From NCBI GenBank assembly GCA_019636285.1, contig JAHBXV010000011.1, positions 62,001 through 126,000 on the forward strand: a stretch of 64,000 nt of DNA, in the 5' to 3' direction. A program made the translations under genes and the position numbers. The DNA comes from Planctomycetaceae bacterium. Lineage in GTDB: Bacteria; Planctomycetota; Planctomycetia; Planctomycetales; Planctomycetaceae. Of the stretch, positions 3,457-10,915 are shown piece after piece. The notes beneath the pieces are model-generated. The model saw only the letters and a list, made by a program, of their open reading frames with translations, was not told where the DNA came from and did no database searches. How positions within the stretch are numbered: position 1 is the stretch's first letter; each line of letters begins with the position of its first letter.

Positions 3457-4386
3457 TTAGAACCGCAAGATCAGGTCGACGGTCAGGCGGTCGTCGATGA
3501 TGTCTTCGCGGTTCGTGAGGGGAACTTCGTAGGCAATCCCCAGTTCCAGATTCTGGCTGGGTTTGTACTTCACGCCCCAGGCGCCGGTGACAACCGTGTT
3601 CCCCGTGATGCCGGGAGCGCCGAAGTTGAACAGGTCCTGCCCACCGACCGGCAGCGGGAATTCGTCAGCCGACGTCATGTAGTGGAAAATATTGTTCTCG
3701 GCGAAGACGTAGAACGCCGACTTGCCCAGTTTCTTATCGAGGTGGTTCGACCAGTACCACTGCTGATTTTCAGCGCTGCGGTTGGCTGGCAGACGAAAGC
3801 CTGTACCACTCAACCAGTGCATGCCTTCGAAGAGCTCCTTTCCGCCGGTGACAAACAGGTGGAATTCGCCATCGCCGTTCCCCTGCAGGGCGCGAGTGCT
3901 CCCCACGGGAAGTTCGAAGGTCAGCCCGCCGCTGAGAATCGTCTGCGTCTCGGCATCTTTGTAGATGTTGTACTTCAAGCCGGCGGAGACGTCGGCGAAG
4001 CCATCGTCGAGAACCGGGCTGTCGGAAACGATGAAGCCGTCCTTGGTGGCGATGATCGAGAGGCGATCGGTCAGCGCGGCCCGCAGTTGTGTCGCATAAA
4101 GCTACACGTTGTCACCCCCCAGCGAGTTGGGGAGCCGGTGATTCAAGAAAATGACGCGCGCTTCGGTCAACGTGCGGGGGTCTTCAAAGTAAACCGGATT
4201 GGTCATCGGACTGATAAAGTCCGAAAAGCAATGATCGGAGTGAGTAAACAGTCCCAGCAGCTTGCCATCATCGCCGACGAGCTTCGGAAGCTCCCATTCA
4301 CTGGGGTCGAGCAGGTCCTGGGCATGCGTCATGCGGGGGCCCGCCAGCAGCACGAGCATGGCGACCGCGACTCCAATTCGTCTCAT
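3457..4386 (-). pseudogene. Secreted beta-barrel-like protein gene with an in-frame TAG
   Basis: One continuous frame runs from ATG at 4386 to TAA at 3457, 309 codons, with a single in-frame stop, TAG at 4104-4102. The start has AAGGA at a 9-nt spacing and a clear signal peptide (MRRIGVAVAMLVLLAG...AQ). Before the stop the product reads FEDPRTLTEARVIFLNHRLP; directly after it reads LYATQLRAALTDRLSIIATK, then strand-rich sequence ending in VDLILRF, an outer-membrane-barrel style C-terminus ending in Phe. Both halves fit one protein. A single C-to-T change from CAG (Gln) to TAG would explain the break. Options are a pseudogene, a sequencing error, or amber readthrough. An internal ATG at 3978 opens a 173-aa frame but lacks a signal peptide. 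Confidence 0.8.
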
Positions 4387-4595
4387 TTTTACAATTCCTT
4401 TTGCGCCGGCATCCGCATCGACCGGGTGGAAAATCGATGCAAGCCGTGGTTTTTGACTCCTGTCGCAAAAAGGTGATCGGCAAGTCCGATTTGGATGTCG
4501 CGCGCAACCACTGCGAGCCCGCAAGTCAGCACGCAAGACTGAGAATTTCGCGAGAATTGAAAGATTTTCTCAAGTCGTGAAAAACGCTCAAGAAG

Positions 4596-5650: not shown

Positions 5651-5746
5651 GATGAAAATTCAATTGCCAGGCGGTGTCGGGCGCATCAGACTCGAATCTC
5701 CTGGATGATCCATCGCCGCACCCGTTTCTTACCGACAGGCAGCCTT

Positions 5747-7384
5747 ATGACGACAACTTCTGCGAACTTGCCGGCGCGACTGCTCCTCGTCATGTGCTGC
5801 GTCCTGGCCGGACGCGGACTCTGTGAGGCCCAGTTCACCCGGGTCAGCGACTGGGATGGCTATACCGACAGGCAGGTCTACGGCGTACCCCTTGATCCCG
5901 ATGCCGTCATTGAGATCGCTGACGAACCCAAAGTCATTGACCTCGGGACGCTCCTGCCACCCGAAATGTCAACGAACGTGACGCTGGCGTTTGATAAGAC
6001 ACCGCTCGACCGGGCGATTGCCACGATCAAGGAGAAGCTCGCGATTGACGTCGTTTTTGAAGAGTCCGCACTGAATGACGAGGGAATTGCTCCCGACAAC
6101 AGGATTTCAGCCAGCGCGAACGACGAGCCCCTCTATTTGCTGCTGGATCGCATGCTGGCCCCCTTACAACTTACGTGGGACATGCGCGGCGGAGTGCTTT
6201 GGATCACCACGGAAACGGCCTACTACGAGCGGCCTTATTTTGAGGGCCACGACCTGAGCCGCCTGCTCAACCAGGGTTATGATTTCCGTCAATTGAGCCG
6301 CGTGTTGAGCACGATTCTCCAGGCGGAATGGAGCATCGTTGGCGAGACATTATTCGTTAGAGGGGTCAATGGCGAGCAGACCGAGATCGCGGCCTTGCTG
6401 GTCGCTTTGCAGACGCCTGCCCGACAGACTTTTACCAGAGAGCCTGCACAAACATCAAAGCTTCGCGAACTGCTAATGCATCCCGTCAGCGTTGACTTTC
6501 AAAAGATTCCACTGGACGAGGCACTCCGAATCCTTTCCCAAGAAGTGGGCACACACATTTTTATTAACGACGTGGCACTACACGACGAAGGACTTTCGGA
6601 AGACGTGCCGATCTCCGTCTCGCTGACACAGAAGCCTCTTAAGACCGTCCTCAATGTACTGCTGGAACCGCAGCAAATGACTAGCGTAATTCGTCATGGT
6701 GCGATCACAGTCACGACGATGACCATGGAAAGCGACTTGTTCAAAATCGCCGTCTACGACGTGAGGGATTTCTGCCGCGACTCACTGGCCTGCCGAAGGT
6801 TTGTCGATACGCTCGCCGAAACAACCTCCGGGCAGTGGCCGCCTGTCGAAGCCCACTCTGGCGAAGCCCTTTTTGCACGACCCGGAATACTTGTTGTCAG
6901 GCAGACGGAGCCTGTTCACGACGAAATTCTGACCTTGATCGAGCGGCACCGCGCAATTCGGCGGCAGGCGGAACCGGCCGGTGACCGTCCTTGGACGAAA
7001 TCGCCGGAACTTCGCTTTTATCGCATGCCAGCATCGGTAGCCGATTACCTCGAACAGAACCTGCCGACACTCGTTGCTCCTGAGACGTGGCGGTCGGACA
7101 ACCATCCGGATGCGCCGGGAACGATCGTGAGGATTCAGTCAGAGCCTGTCATGACCGCAACGCCAACAGCGACGAAGGGAACGAGCAACAACGAGGACTG
7201 TGCGGACGAGGAAAAACCAGCCTGGACAGCCAGAGAAACCGTCGTGCTCGCGATTCAGCAGTCTCCTGCCGTCCACGACGAGATTGCCACGCTTCGATGG
7301 CGAGCAGAACAGGGTGACACGATCCCACAGAATTTCAATCGTCCCGGCGACGGTCTCTTCTCGGTGAGCGAGTCATACCCTTAG
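5747..7384 (+). CDS. Secreted STN-like domain protein, tandem paralogue 1
   Basis: The 545-aa product has a signal peptide (LLLVMCCVLAGRGLCEAQ). It contains two copies of a module of the form VxFxxxPLxxAxxxL, then ALxDEG[IL], then PLxxxLxxxL. The modules start near residues 73 and 244. This resembles the secretin/TonB short N-terminal (STN) fold, which is common in planctomycete envelope proteins. The C-terminal half ends in an FARPGILVV...TEPVHDEI strand-helix unit. The role is unknown; extracytoplasmic protein interaction is an inference. ATG 5747 is preferred because it directly precedes the signal sequence; ATG 5705 is an in-frame alternative. It shares its architecture with the next two genes. 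Confidence 0.75.
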   Translation: MTTTSANLPARLLLVMCCVLAGRGLCEAQFTRVSDWDGYTDRQVYGVPLDPDAVIEIADEPKVIDLGTLLPPEMSTNVTLAFDKTPLDRAIATIKEKLAIDVVFEESALNDEGIAPDNRISASANDEPLYLLLDRMLAPLQLTWDMRGGVLWITTETAYYERPYFEGHDLSRLLNQGYDFRQLSRVLSTILQAEWSIVGETLFVRGVNGEQTEIAALLVALQTPARQTFTREPAQTSKLRELLMHPVSVDFQKIPLDEALRILSQEVGTHIFINDVALHDEGLSEDVPISVSLTQKPLKTVLNVLLEPQQMTSVIRHGAITVTTMTMESDLFKIAVYDVRDFCRDSLACRRFVDTLAETTSGQWPPVEAHSGEALFARPGILVVRQTEPVHDEILTLIERHRAIRRQAEPAGDRPWTKSPELRFYRMPASVADYLEQNLPTLVAPETWRSDNHPDAPGTIVRIQSEPVMTATPTATKGTSNNEDCADEEKPAWTARETVVLAIQQSPAVHDEIATLRWRAEQGDTIPQNFNRPGDGLFSVSESYP

Positions 7385-7449
7385 GCGTGCTTCATCGCAT
7401 TCTTCTAGAGCACGAATCGAAAAGTTCACCCCCTATTCGAGACGAACAG

Positions 7450-9117
7450 ATGCGCAACCCGACGATTCTTGCTATCGCCGCGTGTCTCATCGCTTTGGGG
7501 CAAAAGCCCCTGGACGCCCAATATGACGGGCCTTTCCATATGGGCGGGTTCGGAGACGGCTATCTCTACGTGCCTGCTCTCGGTGTACCAGTCGCCCCAG
7601 ACGCAGTCATTGAGATCGCGGACGAGCCAAGAACGATCGATCCTGCGACGCTGTTACCGCAGGAACTAACGAGGAAGGTGACGCTGGCGTTTGATAAAAC
7701 GCCGCTCCGCGAAGTCGTGGACATGCTGAAAAAAGAGCTGGGAATCGAGGTCATACTTGATGACACTGCACTTTACAATGAGGATATTCCGACCGACATT
7801 CCGATCGTGGCTCGTGCCAAAGACGAACCAGCTTATTTACTGCTCGACCGAATTGTAGGACATCGCTTCTATCTTGGGTGGAGCTTTCGTGATGGCATTT
7901 TAAGAATCACGTCGCAATACTCTGAAGAGCGCCGTTTTGATAGCAGAGCCTACGACTTAAGCAGCCTCTTGAACGACGGCTACGAAGCTCGGCACCTCTG
8001 CGATTTATTGGACTTCATTCCGAATTCTCGCTGGAAGCCGACCAACGCCGATGGAGGCACACGAAATATGGTCGGCGAAACTCTGGTCGTTTGGCAGACT
8101 CATGACGTTCGTCACCAGGTTGCGGGGCTTATCGCTGCCCTCAAAACTCCCGCCCGACGAATTCTTGTCTACGAACCGGCACAGCATGAGAGCTTGCGCG
8201 ATCTCTTGGAACGGCCAATTAGCGTTAATTTTGACGAAACGCCGTTGAACGAAGCGTTGGCGATCCTGTCCGAACAAATCGGTGCGACAATTTCGATCGA
8301 CCAAGAGGCGCTCAGCGACGAGGGGACCGCTCCAGATTCGCCGGTATCGTTGTTGCTCTCCGAGAAACCGCTCCGGGTCGTAATGGACTGGTTACTGGAG
8401 CGGCTGGAGTTGGCATGCATTGTTGAGCAAGGTCAGTTGACTGTGACAACGGCAACATTGGCAAGAGAACTGATGGGGCTTTCCCTCTTTGACGTGCGGG
8501 ATATCTGCCGCAACAACAAAACTTCCCGACAGTTGCTGGAAATGATTTGGGGTAACCCGCGATGCCGATGGGCATACATTCATGGTGATGGGGGAAGGAT
8601 GGCGTTTGCCCGGCCAGGGATTCTGCTCGTACAGCATTCGGCGGCAGTTCGGGACGAGATTTTTTCGCTGATCGAAGAATTGCGATCACTCCGTCAACAA
8701 GCGGAACCGGCCAGCGAGCGTCCCTGGGAACATACCGTTGACGTTCGCTTCTACCGCATGTCCGCATCAGTTGCCGATTACATGGAACGCAATCTTCCGA
8801 CACAGATTGCTCCTGAATCGTGGCGGTCAGAGGCGCGGCCGGACGCTCCGGGAACCATTGAGCGGATTCCAATGTCACCGATACCGGCCAGTGGCCCTCT
8901 GGCTCCTCAGGAGAACGCAATAAAAGAGAACGATGAAAAGAGGCCGGATGAGGAAAAGGCTGCTGAGAGGATTGTGAAGACGGTCGTGCTGGCCATCCGG
9001 CAGACTGCGAATGCCCATGAGGAGATAGCTGCTCTGCGGCAACGTGCGGAAAGTTGCTTCGAAAACAATTTTAGCTGGGGGACGTGCGGCTACGGGCCAA
9101 TCCCGTTGAGCAACTAA
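7450..9117 (+). CDS. Secreted STN-like domain protein, tandem paralogue 2
   Basis: The 555-aa paralogue starts with the signal peptide MRNPTILAIAACLIALGQKPLDAQ. It carries the same two modules (VTLAFDKTPL...ALYNEDI and ISVNFDETPL...ALSDEGT) and the shared tail (PWEHTVDVRFYRMSASVADY). ATG 7450 is chosen because the signal sequence begins there; the in-frame upstream start at 7387 would add 21 non-hydrophobic residues. The gene follows paralogue 1 by 65 bases, and cotranscription is plausible. It has somewhat lower GC and more A/T-ending codons than the dehydrogenase gene downstream. The molecular function is not known. Confidence 0.75.
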   Translation: MRNPTILAIAACLIALGQKPLDAQYDGPFHMGGFGDGYLYVPALGVPVAPDAVIEIADEPRTIDPATLLPQELTRKVTLAFDKTPLREVVDMLKKELGIEVILDDTALYNEDIPTDIPIVARAKDEPAYLLLDRIVGHRFYLGWSFRDGILRITSQYSEERRFDSRAYDLSSLLNDGYEARHLCDLLDFIPNSRWKPTNADGGTRNMVGETLVVWQTHDVRHQVAGLIAALKTPARRILVYEPAQHESLRDLLERPISVNFDETPLNEALAILSEQIGATISIDQEALSDEGTAPDSPVSLLLSEKPLRVVMDWLLERLELACIVEQGQLTVTTATLARELMGLSLFDVRDICRNNKTSRQLLEMIWGNPRCRWAYIHGDGGRMAFARPGILLVQHSAAVRDEIFSLIEELRSLRQQAEPASERPWEHTVDVRFYRMSASVADYMERNLPTQIAPESWRSEARPDAPGTIERIPMSPIPASGPLAPQENAIKENDEKRPDEEKAAERIVKTVVLAIRQTANAHEEIAALRQRAESCFENNFSWGTCGYGPIPLSN

Positions 9118-9196
9118 CATCTTCGAACACGGCTCTTCCCGTTGGCGGTCTCCCCGCAATCGGAACTGGCTTTCGACCTCGACTTGGGACAAACAT

Positions 9197-10915
9197 ATGC
9201 AAGCTCCATCCCGGTTCGCCCTTCAAGTTTTGCTGGCCGCGTGTCTTATCGCCGTGGGACAAAAGCCACTGGACGCACAATTTCGCGGGCCGACTCCCTG
9301 GGATGGCTATCCCTACGTGCCCATTCATGGCGCGCCCGTGGACTCAGGAGCGGCAATCGAGATCGCCGACAAGCCGAAAGCGATCGACCCCGCGACACTG
9401 TTGCCGCCAGAAATGGCCGCGAAAGTGACGCTGACGTTCGAGAAGACGCCGCTCAGTGAGGTGGTGACGACGCTTAGTGAGAAGCTGGCGATTGACGTTG
9501 TCCTGGACGAAATAGCATTGAACGACGAAGGAATTGACCTCGATTTTCCGGTTTCGACCCGCGCGAATGACGAACCGGTCTATTTGCTAGTGGACCGGAT
9601 GATGGGTCGGTCGCTCGCCTGGAGCATTCGCAACGGTCTCTTGCGAATTAGTACCCGAACCGCCGAACAAGGGCGTCTTGATACCAGAAGTTACGACCTG
9701 AGCGGCCTCCTGAACGACGGCTACAGCGTTCAGCAGCTCGACTATCTTCTCAGTGATGTGACTTCGAGCGAATGGGAACTGATTGACGGCGTTGGTGGAG
9801 CCCTGCGAGTCGTTGGTGACTCGCTGATCGTTTCTCAGACTGACAAAGGCCATCGCGAAATTGCCGGCGTGCTCGCCGCGCTGCGAACTCCCGCGCGGCA
9901 GACATTGATTGGTCAAGCCCCTCAAACCGAGCAAGTGCAAGCGTTCTTCAAACATCCAATCACGGTGAAGTTTGTCGAGACACCGCTCGTCGAAGCATTG
10001 GCGGCACTTTCTAAAATTATTGGTTCCGACATTCAAATCGACGAATTGTCGCTCGAAGACAATGGAATCTCGCTCGACACTCCTATCACATTTTCCCTGC
10101 GAGATAAGCCGTTGCATGTTGTTCTTGATACGTTACTGCCTCCTCTGGACCTCACGTGCGTCGTCGCGAACGCGGAACTGCTCGTCACGACGACCGCCGA
10201 GGCTGAGGAACTCATGACGCTGGCGCTTTATGATGTCCGGGATCTCTGCCTCAGTAACAAGACGTCCCGACAACTCCTCGAAATGATTCAAGGCACCACG
10301 AACGGCGAATGGAAAGACATTGACGGCGTCGGAGGAGGGGTAGCCTTCGCCCGACCGGGAATTCTGCTCGTGCAGCAGACGAGTCCGATGCACGACCAGG
10401 TTTTTTCACTGATTGAACAATTGCGAACGCTCCGCGGGCAGGCTCAACCGGTTGGCGAGCGCCCCTGGGAACGCGCGGTCGAAACGCGCTTCTACCGTGT
10501 GACCTCTGCCGCCGCGGACTATCTGGAACGAAATCTCCCGAAGTTGATTGCTCCGGAAACGTGGCGATCGGGGGAACGGCCGGACGCTCCTGGAACCATC
10601 GAACGGATAACGGCGGCACCGGTGCCGGTCGGCAGCCCCCTCCCTCCTCCTCCGAAGACGGAGAAAAAAACGGAAGACGGAAACCAGGAAAAGCCCGCCG
10701 TGCCGCTCGTCAACACGGTTGTCCTGGCGATCCGGCAGACCGTGGATGTGCATGAAGAGATTCCCGCCCTGCTACACCGCGTCAAAGATGGTGATGGGAA
10801 TTACAGCAAGTGGGGGCCATGCGGCTACGGTTTCTCCCAGGTCAACGAGCCATTTCGGGGTAGTCCTCTCCCATTGGCACCACTTGAGCCTTCGAAAGGC
10901 GCGGGGAACGACTGA
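9197..10915 (+). CDS. Secreted STN-like domain protein, tandem paralogue 3
   Basis: The 572-aa third paralogue has the signal peptide MQAPSRFALQVLLAACLIAV, followed by the GQKPLDAQ string also found in paralogue 2. Two STN-like modules are visible (VTLTFEKTPL...ALNDEGI and ITVKFVETPL...SLEDNGI). The tail unit VAFARPGILLVQQTSPMHDQ matches the others. The C-terminus is longer by a Pro-rich stretch and ends GAGND. Closest resemblance is to paralogue 2, which suggests the latest duplication was between these two. The function is unknown; an envelope location is inferred from the signal peptide. Confidence 0.75.
   Translation: MQAPSRFALQVLLAACLIAVGQKPLDAQFRGPTPWDGYPYVPIHGAPVDSGAAIEIADKPKAIDPATLLPPEMAAKVTLTFEKTPLSEVVTTLSEKLAIDVVLDEIALNDEGIDLDFPVSTRANDEPVYLLVDRMMGRSLAWSIRNGLLRISTRTAEQGRLDTRSYDLSGLLNDGYSVQQLDYLLSDVTSSEWELIDGVGGALRVVGDSLIVSQTDKGHREIAGVLAALRTPARQTLIGQAPQTEQVQAFFKHPITVKFVETPLVEALAALSKIIGSDIQIDELSLEDNGISLDTPITFSLRDKPLHVVLDTLLPPLDLTCVVANAELLVTTTAEAEELMTLALYDVRDLCLSNKTSRQLLEMIQGTTNGEWKDIDGVGGGVAFARPGILLVQQTSPMHDQVFSLIEQLRTLRGQAQPVGERPWERAVETRFYRVTSAAADYLERNLPKLIAPETWRSGERPDAPGTIERITAAPVPVGSPLPPPPKTEKKTEDGNQEKPAVPLVNTVVLAIRQTVDVHEEIPALLHRVKDGDGNYSKWGPCGYGFSQVNEPFRGSPLPLAPLEPSKGAGND

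Follow-up and report, generated by a model that had tools for sequence, protein, structure and literature searches.

The DNA analyzed here, called the window, is a 64,000-nucleotide stretch of a Planctomycetaceae bacterium genome (assembly GCA_019636285.1, contig JAHBXV010000011.1, positions 62,001 to 126,000). Its minus strand carries a frame that runs from ATG 4386 to TAA 3459-3457 and holds a single internal stop, TAG at 4104-4102 (codon 95), with 94 open codons upstream of it and 214 downstream. This layout, with more than 200 intact codons after the stop, is as the original prediction described it, except at position 3978: the codon there, reported as an internal ATG, is TTG, and the first in-frame ATG downstream of the TAG is codon 189 (3822-3820). 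The features of the locus are as follows.

3457..4386, minus strand: predicted outer-membrane beta-barrel gene with one in-frame TAG inside (ATG-to-TAA frame and homologues)
4396..4400, minus strand: AAGGA, probable ribosome-binding site, 9 bases 5' of the ATG (read from the sequence)
4321..4386, minus strand: probable secretion leader, about residues 1 to 22 (by eye)
4105..4386, minus strand: pre-stop part, 94 residues, covering predicted strand 1 and reaching two residues into strand 2 (frame and model)
4102..4104, minus strand: in-frame TAG, codon 95, aligned with Gln in 28 of the 45 distinct homologues (frame reading and homologue alignment)
3976..3978, minus strand: TTG, the first possible start (ATG, GTG, or TTG) 3' of the TAG (sequence)
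3460..4101, minus strand: post-stop part, 214 residues, with most of the predicted barrel, still conserved (homologues, hexamer score, and model)

Both sides of the TAG are coding-like by an in-phase hexamer score (0.48 before the stop and 0.63 after it; the mean for the 200 longest frames is 0.36), and homologues run across the site, bearing out the suggestion that the two sides read as one coherent protein.

With the TAG read as Gln, an AlphaFold2 model of the protein has 12 strands (mean pLDDT 80.1, pTM 0.77), with nearly all of residues 1 to 46 below a pLDDT of 50. The earlier description of a secreted barrel agrees with this model and with a leader recognized by eye, and we conclude that the interrupted gene, as modeled, encoded a secreted 12-strand outer-membrane beta-barrel. 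The TAG falls in strand 2 of the model (residues 93 to 104), and since only strand 1 is complete before it, the truncated 94-residue product would be unable to form a barrel.

Searches of Pfam and NCBIfam returned no family match for the window protein; Phenol_MetA_deg (PF13557) gave none at E values up to 1 with X at the stop or up to 0.1 with the TAG as Gln. That family was matched by 5 of 26 aligned relatives (best E value, 2.1e-06), and OMP_b-brl was matched by 4 of the 26 (best E value, 0.0018). A sequence-profile search of the PDB gave one insignificant match, XusB (E value, 0.21). Among the best Foldseek matches of the model in the PDB, at identities of 8 to 15%, were FapF (E value, 1.6e-09), NanC (1.1e-07), and the COG4313 channel 4rl8 (2.5e-07). 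FapF, a Pseudomonas amyloid secretion barrel, was the best of all (TM-score of 0.56 by query length), although the two proteins are only 9% identical in that match. The COG4313 or Phenol_MetA_deg channels, such as Pput2725 (4rl8), share with the modeled protein a 12-strand barrel and a length of about 300 residues; unlike them, the window protein has no Pfam match, and its identity to 4rl8 is 14 to 15%. On the strength of the model, the barrel was probably a channel similar to COG4313 proteins or to FapF. COG4313 proteins are described as outer-membrane channels implicated in the uptake of hydrophobic molecules, the example being a 12-strand barrel (PMC4493636), and by analogy the window barrel may have had a similar role.

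Homologues were collected at two scales. In the GTDB genome collection, the post-stop part alone matched 28 loci, of which 17 are titled as planctomycete, 8 as Verrucomicrobia/Akkermansia, 2 as Gammaproteobacteria, and 1 as an unnamed bacterium; the match with the best identity (67%; E value, 3e-99) is planctomycete. A query with the entire frame, the stop written as X, found matches in 65 of the 150 taxonomic-family genomes searched, its own genome counted in; at the level of the genus, the search comprised this genome alone. A second copy of the barrel gene in its own genome was looked for by profile search and not found; one other PF13557 locus there, on contig C59, is free of stops and unrelated to the barrel gene by the same kind of search. 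Four proteins encoded beside the barrel gene in the window were searched for within at most 5 kb on each side of the 28 GTDB-collection loci and gave no match. A stretch rich in Cys and Gly separates leader and barrel in several homologues (L003, L014, L018, L024, and others) and is absent from the window protein.

The alignment comprised 45 distinct proteins from 57 loci, 12 having been dropped for identical last 240 residues. At the column of the TAG, 28 of the 45 have Gln (19 as CAG and 9 as CAA), 10 have Asn, 6 have Arg, and 1 has Asp; none has a stop or a gap, and the five nearest rows of the tree all have CAG. The original prediction had proposed a CAG-to-TAG change and an alignment to look for Gln at this position. 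Gln is indeed the commonest residue, and given CAG in 19 homologues and in all five of the nearest rows, one common C-to-T transition is enough to account for the stop. Each homologue continues through the site as a single protein, rather than ending at the stop or starting inside the frame.

Decayed copies of the gene occur elsewhere in the taxonomic family. No match to the whole frame was found in 85 of the 150 genomes, some of which are incomplete. Genome G001, a single contig of 7.28 Mb, holds two copies of the barrel family (loci L171 and L172), each frameshifted and broken by one or more in-frame stops, and the copy in G131 has one TGA near its end. Two further candidates were set aside: the TAG of a row from G045 lies outside the aligned part (query residues 37 to 157), and the row from G061 with a TAA is a fragment at a contig start. 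The absence of a match in 85 genomes and the breakage of both G001 copies make the gene look dispensable in the taxonomic family, so that a fresh nonsense mutation would be unsurprising.

The part beyond the stop has hardly decayed. Among the columns invariant in 34 planctomycete homologues, the window protein is changed at 1 of 39 after the TAG and at none of 11 before it; for both sides together this is 1 of 50, and the other rows range from 0 to 3. The one change is at residue 233 (3690-3688), where Ile (ATT) replaces the Trp of all 34 homologues and all three bases of the codon differ. The ratio of divergence after the stop to that before it, 1.367, is the third highest among 35 rows. Since two intact rows exceed it, it hints at relaxation weakly at best. 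We simulated neutral substitution without insertions or deletions, counting the cases in which no further stop arose and no more than one invariant residue changed; the chance of such a case was 0.35 at 0.02 substitutions per site and 0.038 at 0.05. A real lesion that abolished the product would therefore date back less than about 0.05 neutral substitutions per site. These observations support the earlier view of a recent event: because the post-stop part has barely decayed, either the change is recent or the TAG comes from a base error or from a minor strain allele.

We examined how TAG is used in this genome with a sample of 1,660,618 bases, 26% of the 6,366,631-base genome. It contained 749 non-overlapping frames of 300 codons or more, counted from stop to stop; these are mechanical frames rather than annotated genes, and they ended in TGA (411), TAG (181), or TAA (157). 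The gene for RF1 (prfA) was found above the cutoff and without stops. A genome-wide tRNA search gave 60 matches, 56 of them above the cutoff, with 150 of 158 first candidates scored; at these places and in the first 20 kb of contig C78, none of the tRNAs named by ARAGORN has a CUA anticodon, and in three weak matches (L128, L129, and L130) it named no tRNA at all. Contig C78 carries a degenerate tRNA array, in which no CTA suppressor was seen by ARAGORN, by Rfam at a loose threshold, or by eye. A cloverleaf scan of the sampled stretches, which requires a TTCRA T-loop, found no CTA anticodon and at least one place for each of eight control anticodons; run with GTA, it missed the degenerate Tyr-like tRNA of the C78 array that was read by eye, so the scan is not exhaustive.

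A scan for in-frame stops with coding-like flanks found 20 junctions in 921,207 bases and 8 in 739,411 (13 TGA, 8 TAG with the barrel TAG included, and 7 TAA). Judged by eye, without a homology check of each, 27 of the 28 are either the end of a gene followed by another gene in the same frame or a noncoding shadow frame. The barrel TAG was thus the only junction that splits one gene, and the proposed look for other genes with in-frame TAG codons brought up no second interrupted gene in this 26% of the genome, again by eye. With a stricter score and shorter flanks, seven junctions were found, of which one was new (contig C43, TAG) and was taken as a shadow frame.

The locus is probably a very young pseudogene of an outer-membrane barrel with a single lesion, produced by an ordinary nonsense mutation. 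This conclusion draws on the single lesion in a conserved frame, on Gln and CAG in the homologues, on the normal use of TAG as a terminator, and on the apparent dispensability of the gene. At this site, where homologues mostly encode Gln, one nonsense substitution would have created the TAG; translation from ATG 4386 would then stop after 94 residues, with strand 2 incomplete and no barrel formed. We infer that the TAG base is real and that the barrel product has been lost. Recently formed bacterial nonsense pseudogenes look much the same, with a single in-frame stop in a conserved and otherwise intact frame, and nothing unusual was seen here; the two broken copies of G001, in contrast, are more decayed and have frameshifts as well as stops. 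Some findings weigh against a young pseudogene. There is no second lesion, as would also be expected if the TAG were a base error or if the protein continued to be produced, and no other young interrupted gene turned up in the 26% of the genome sampled. The change of a conserved Trp to Ile at residue 233 is weak evidence that fits drift or an accepted change alike.

A somewhat unlikely alternative is a gene that is intact in the population, with the TAG stemming from a miscalled base or from a minor strain allele captured in the draft consensus. The rest of the frame has decayed no further than the range of intact homologues, as this would require, and the genome is a draft in 113 contigs. A handful of consensus errors per genome could also account for one interrupted gene in 26% of it. 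Against a base error, the TAG lies about 66 kb into a 136-kb contig, far from both ends, the sequence bears no mark of an error-prone place, and truly broken copies exist elsewhere in the taxonomic family.

A third account would have ribosomes read through the barrel TAG often enough to give some full-length barrel, the stop acting as a throttle. We regard this as very unlikely, and are just as doubtful of its more specific form, in which readthrough of UAG peculiar to this species and this gene would sustain a low level of barrel without a dedicated suppressor tRNA. Both sides of the TAG look constrained, and one violation among 39 invariant post-stop columns would also be expected of a gene that is maintained. 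However, none of the 45 homologues, the nearest of which is from another genus, has a stop at this column, and no tRNA with a CUA anticodon was found. Nor is the RNA near the TAG unusually structured (z of +1.35, with 183 of 200 shuffles folding at least as well). The six bases 3' of the stop are CTTTAT, with four T and no G. In E. coli, one study (PMC11126739) links readthrough to a downstream sequence rich in G and poor in T and ranks the stops TGA > TAG > TAA; if these results carry over to the present species, the context here runs contrary to that trend and TAG ranks below TGA. A literature search combining planctomycetes, in-frame stop codons, and readthrough gave no match, which is not a claim that nothing is in print. 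If production of the barrel protein were demonstrated, this would represent an unusual example of bacterial readthrough in an outer-membrane protein.

That the frame holds two separate genes, the second starting within it after the TAG, is scarcely credible: a TTG start codon is available at 3978, but the homologues are continuous across the site, and the second piece would be without a leader and without the first strands. Reassignment or general suppression of TAG in the host organism can be dismissed with near certainty, as TAG ends 181 of 749 long frames, RF1 is present, no CUA anticodon was found among the tRNAs, and by eye no second TAG-split gene appeared among the 28 junctions of the 26% sampled; genome-wide recoding was rejected on the terminator counts, RF1, and the tRNA list. 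Of the three causes originally offered for the stop, a nonsense mutation and a base error thus stand, whereas readthrough as a trait of the species is not supported, given the same terminator, RF1, and tRNA evidence and no second interrupted gene in the 26% of the genome sampled. The earlier suggestion that the protein may still be produced likewise found no support.

Because TAG is an ordinary stop in this genome, the barrel gene should be annotated as a pseudogene or a possible base error, with no recoding. Beyond annotation, the finding has little significance.

Two other regions drew attention. The tRNA array of contig C78 (L112:85-2937) comprises 14 tRNAs named by ARAGORN together with two more read by eye, one Tyr-like (167-249) and one Asn-like (starting at about 2938). 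Many of the tRNAs score low, and their anticodons repeat those found elsewhere in the genome. An open reading frame resembling an HNH nuclease lies within the array (1646-2245, by eye). Array units of tRNAs have been described in other bacteria, and the one on C78 is probably a mobile element. Beyond it, also by eye, are open reading frames resembling a heavy-metal efflux pump of the RND type (L112:7570-11280) and a metal P-type ATPase (L112:13468-16092). In the window itself, positions 5705-10915 hold three consecutive plus-strand open reading frames of 559, 576, and 572 amino acids that look like tandem paralogues, with recurring motifs such as segments similar to AVVIEIADEPK (by eye).
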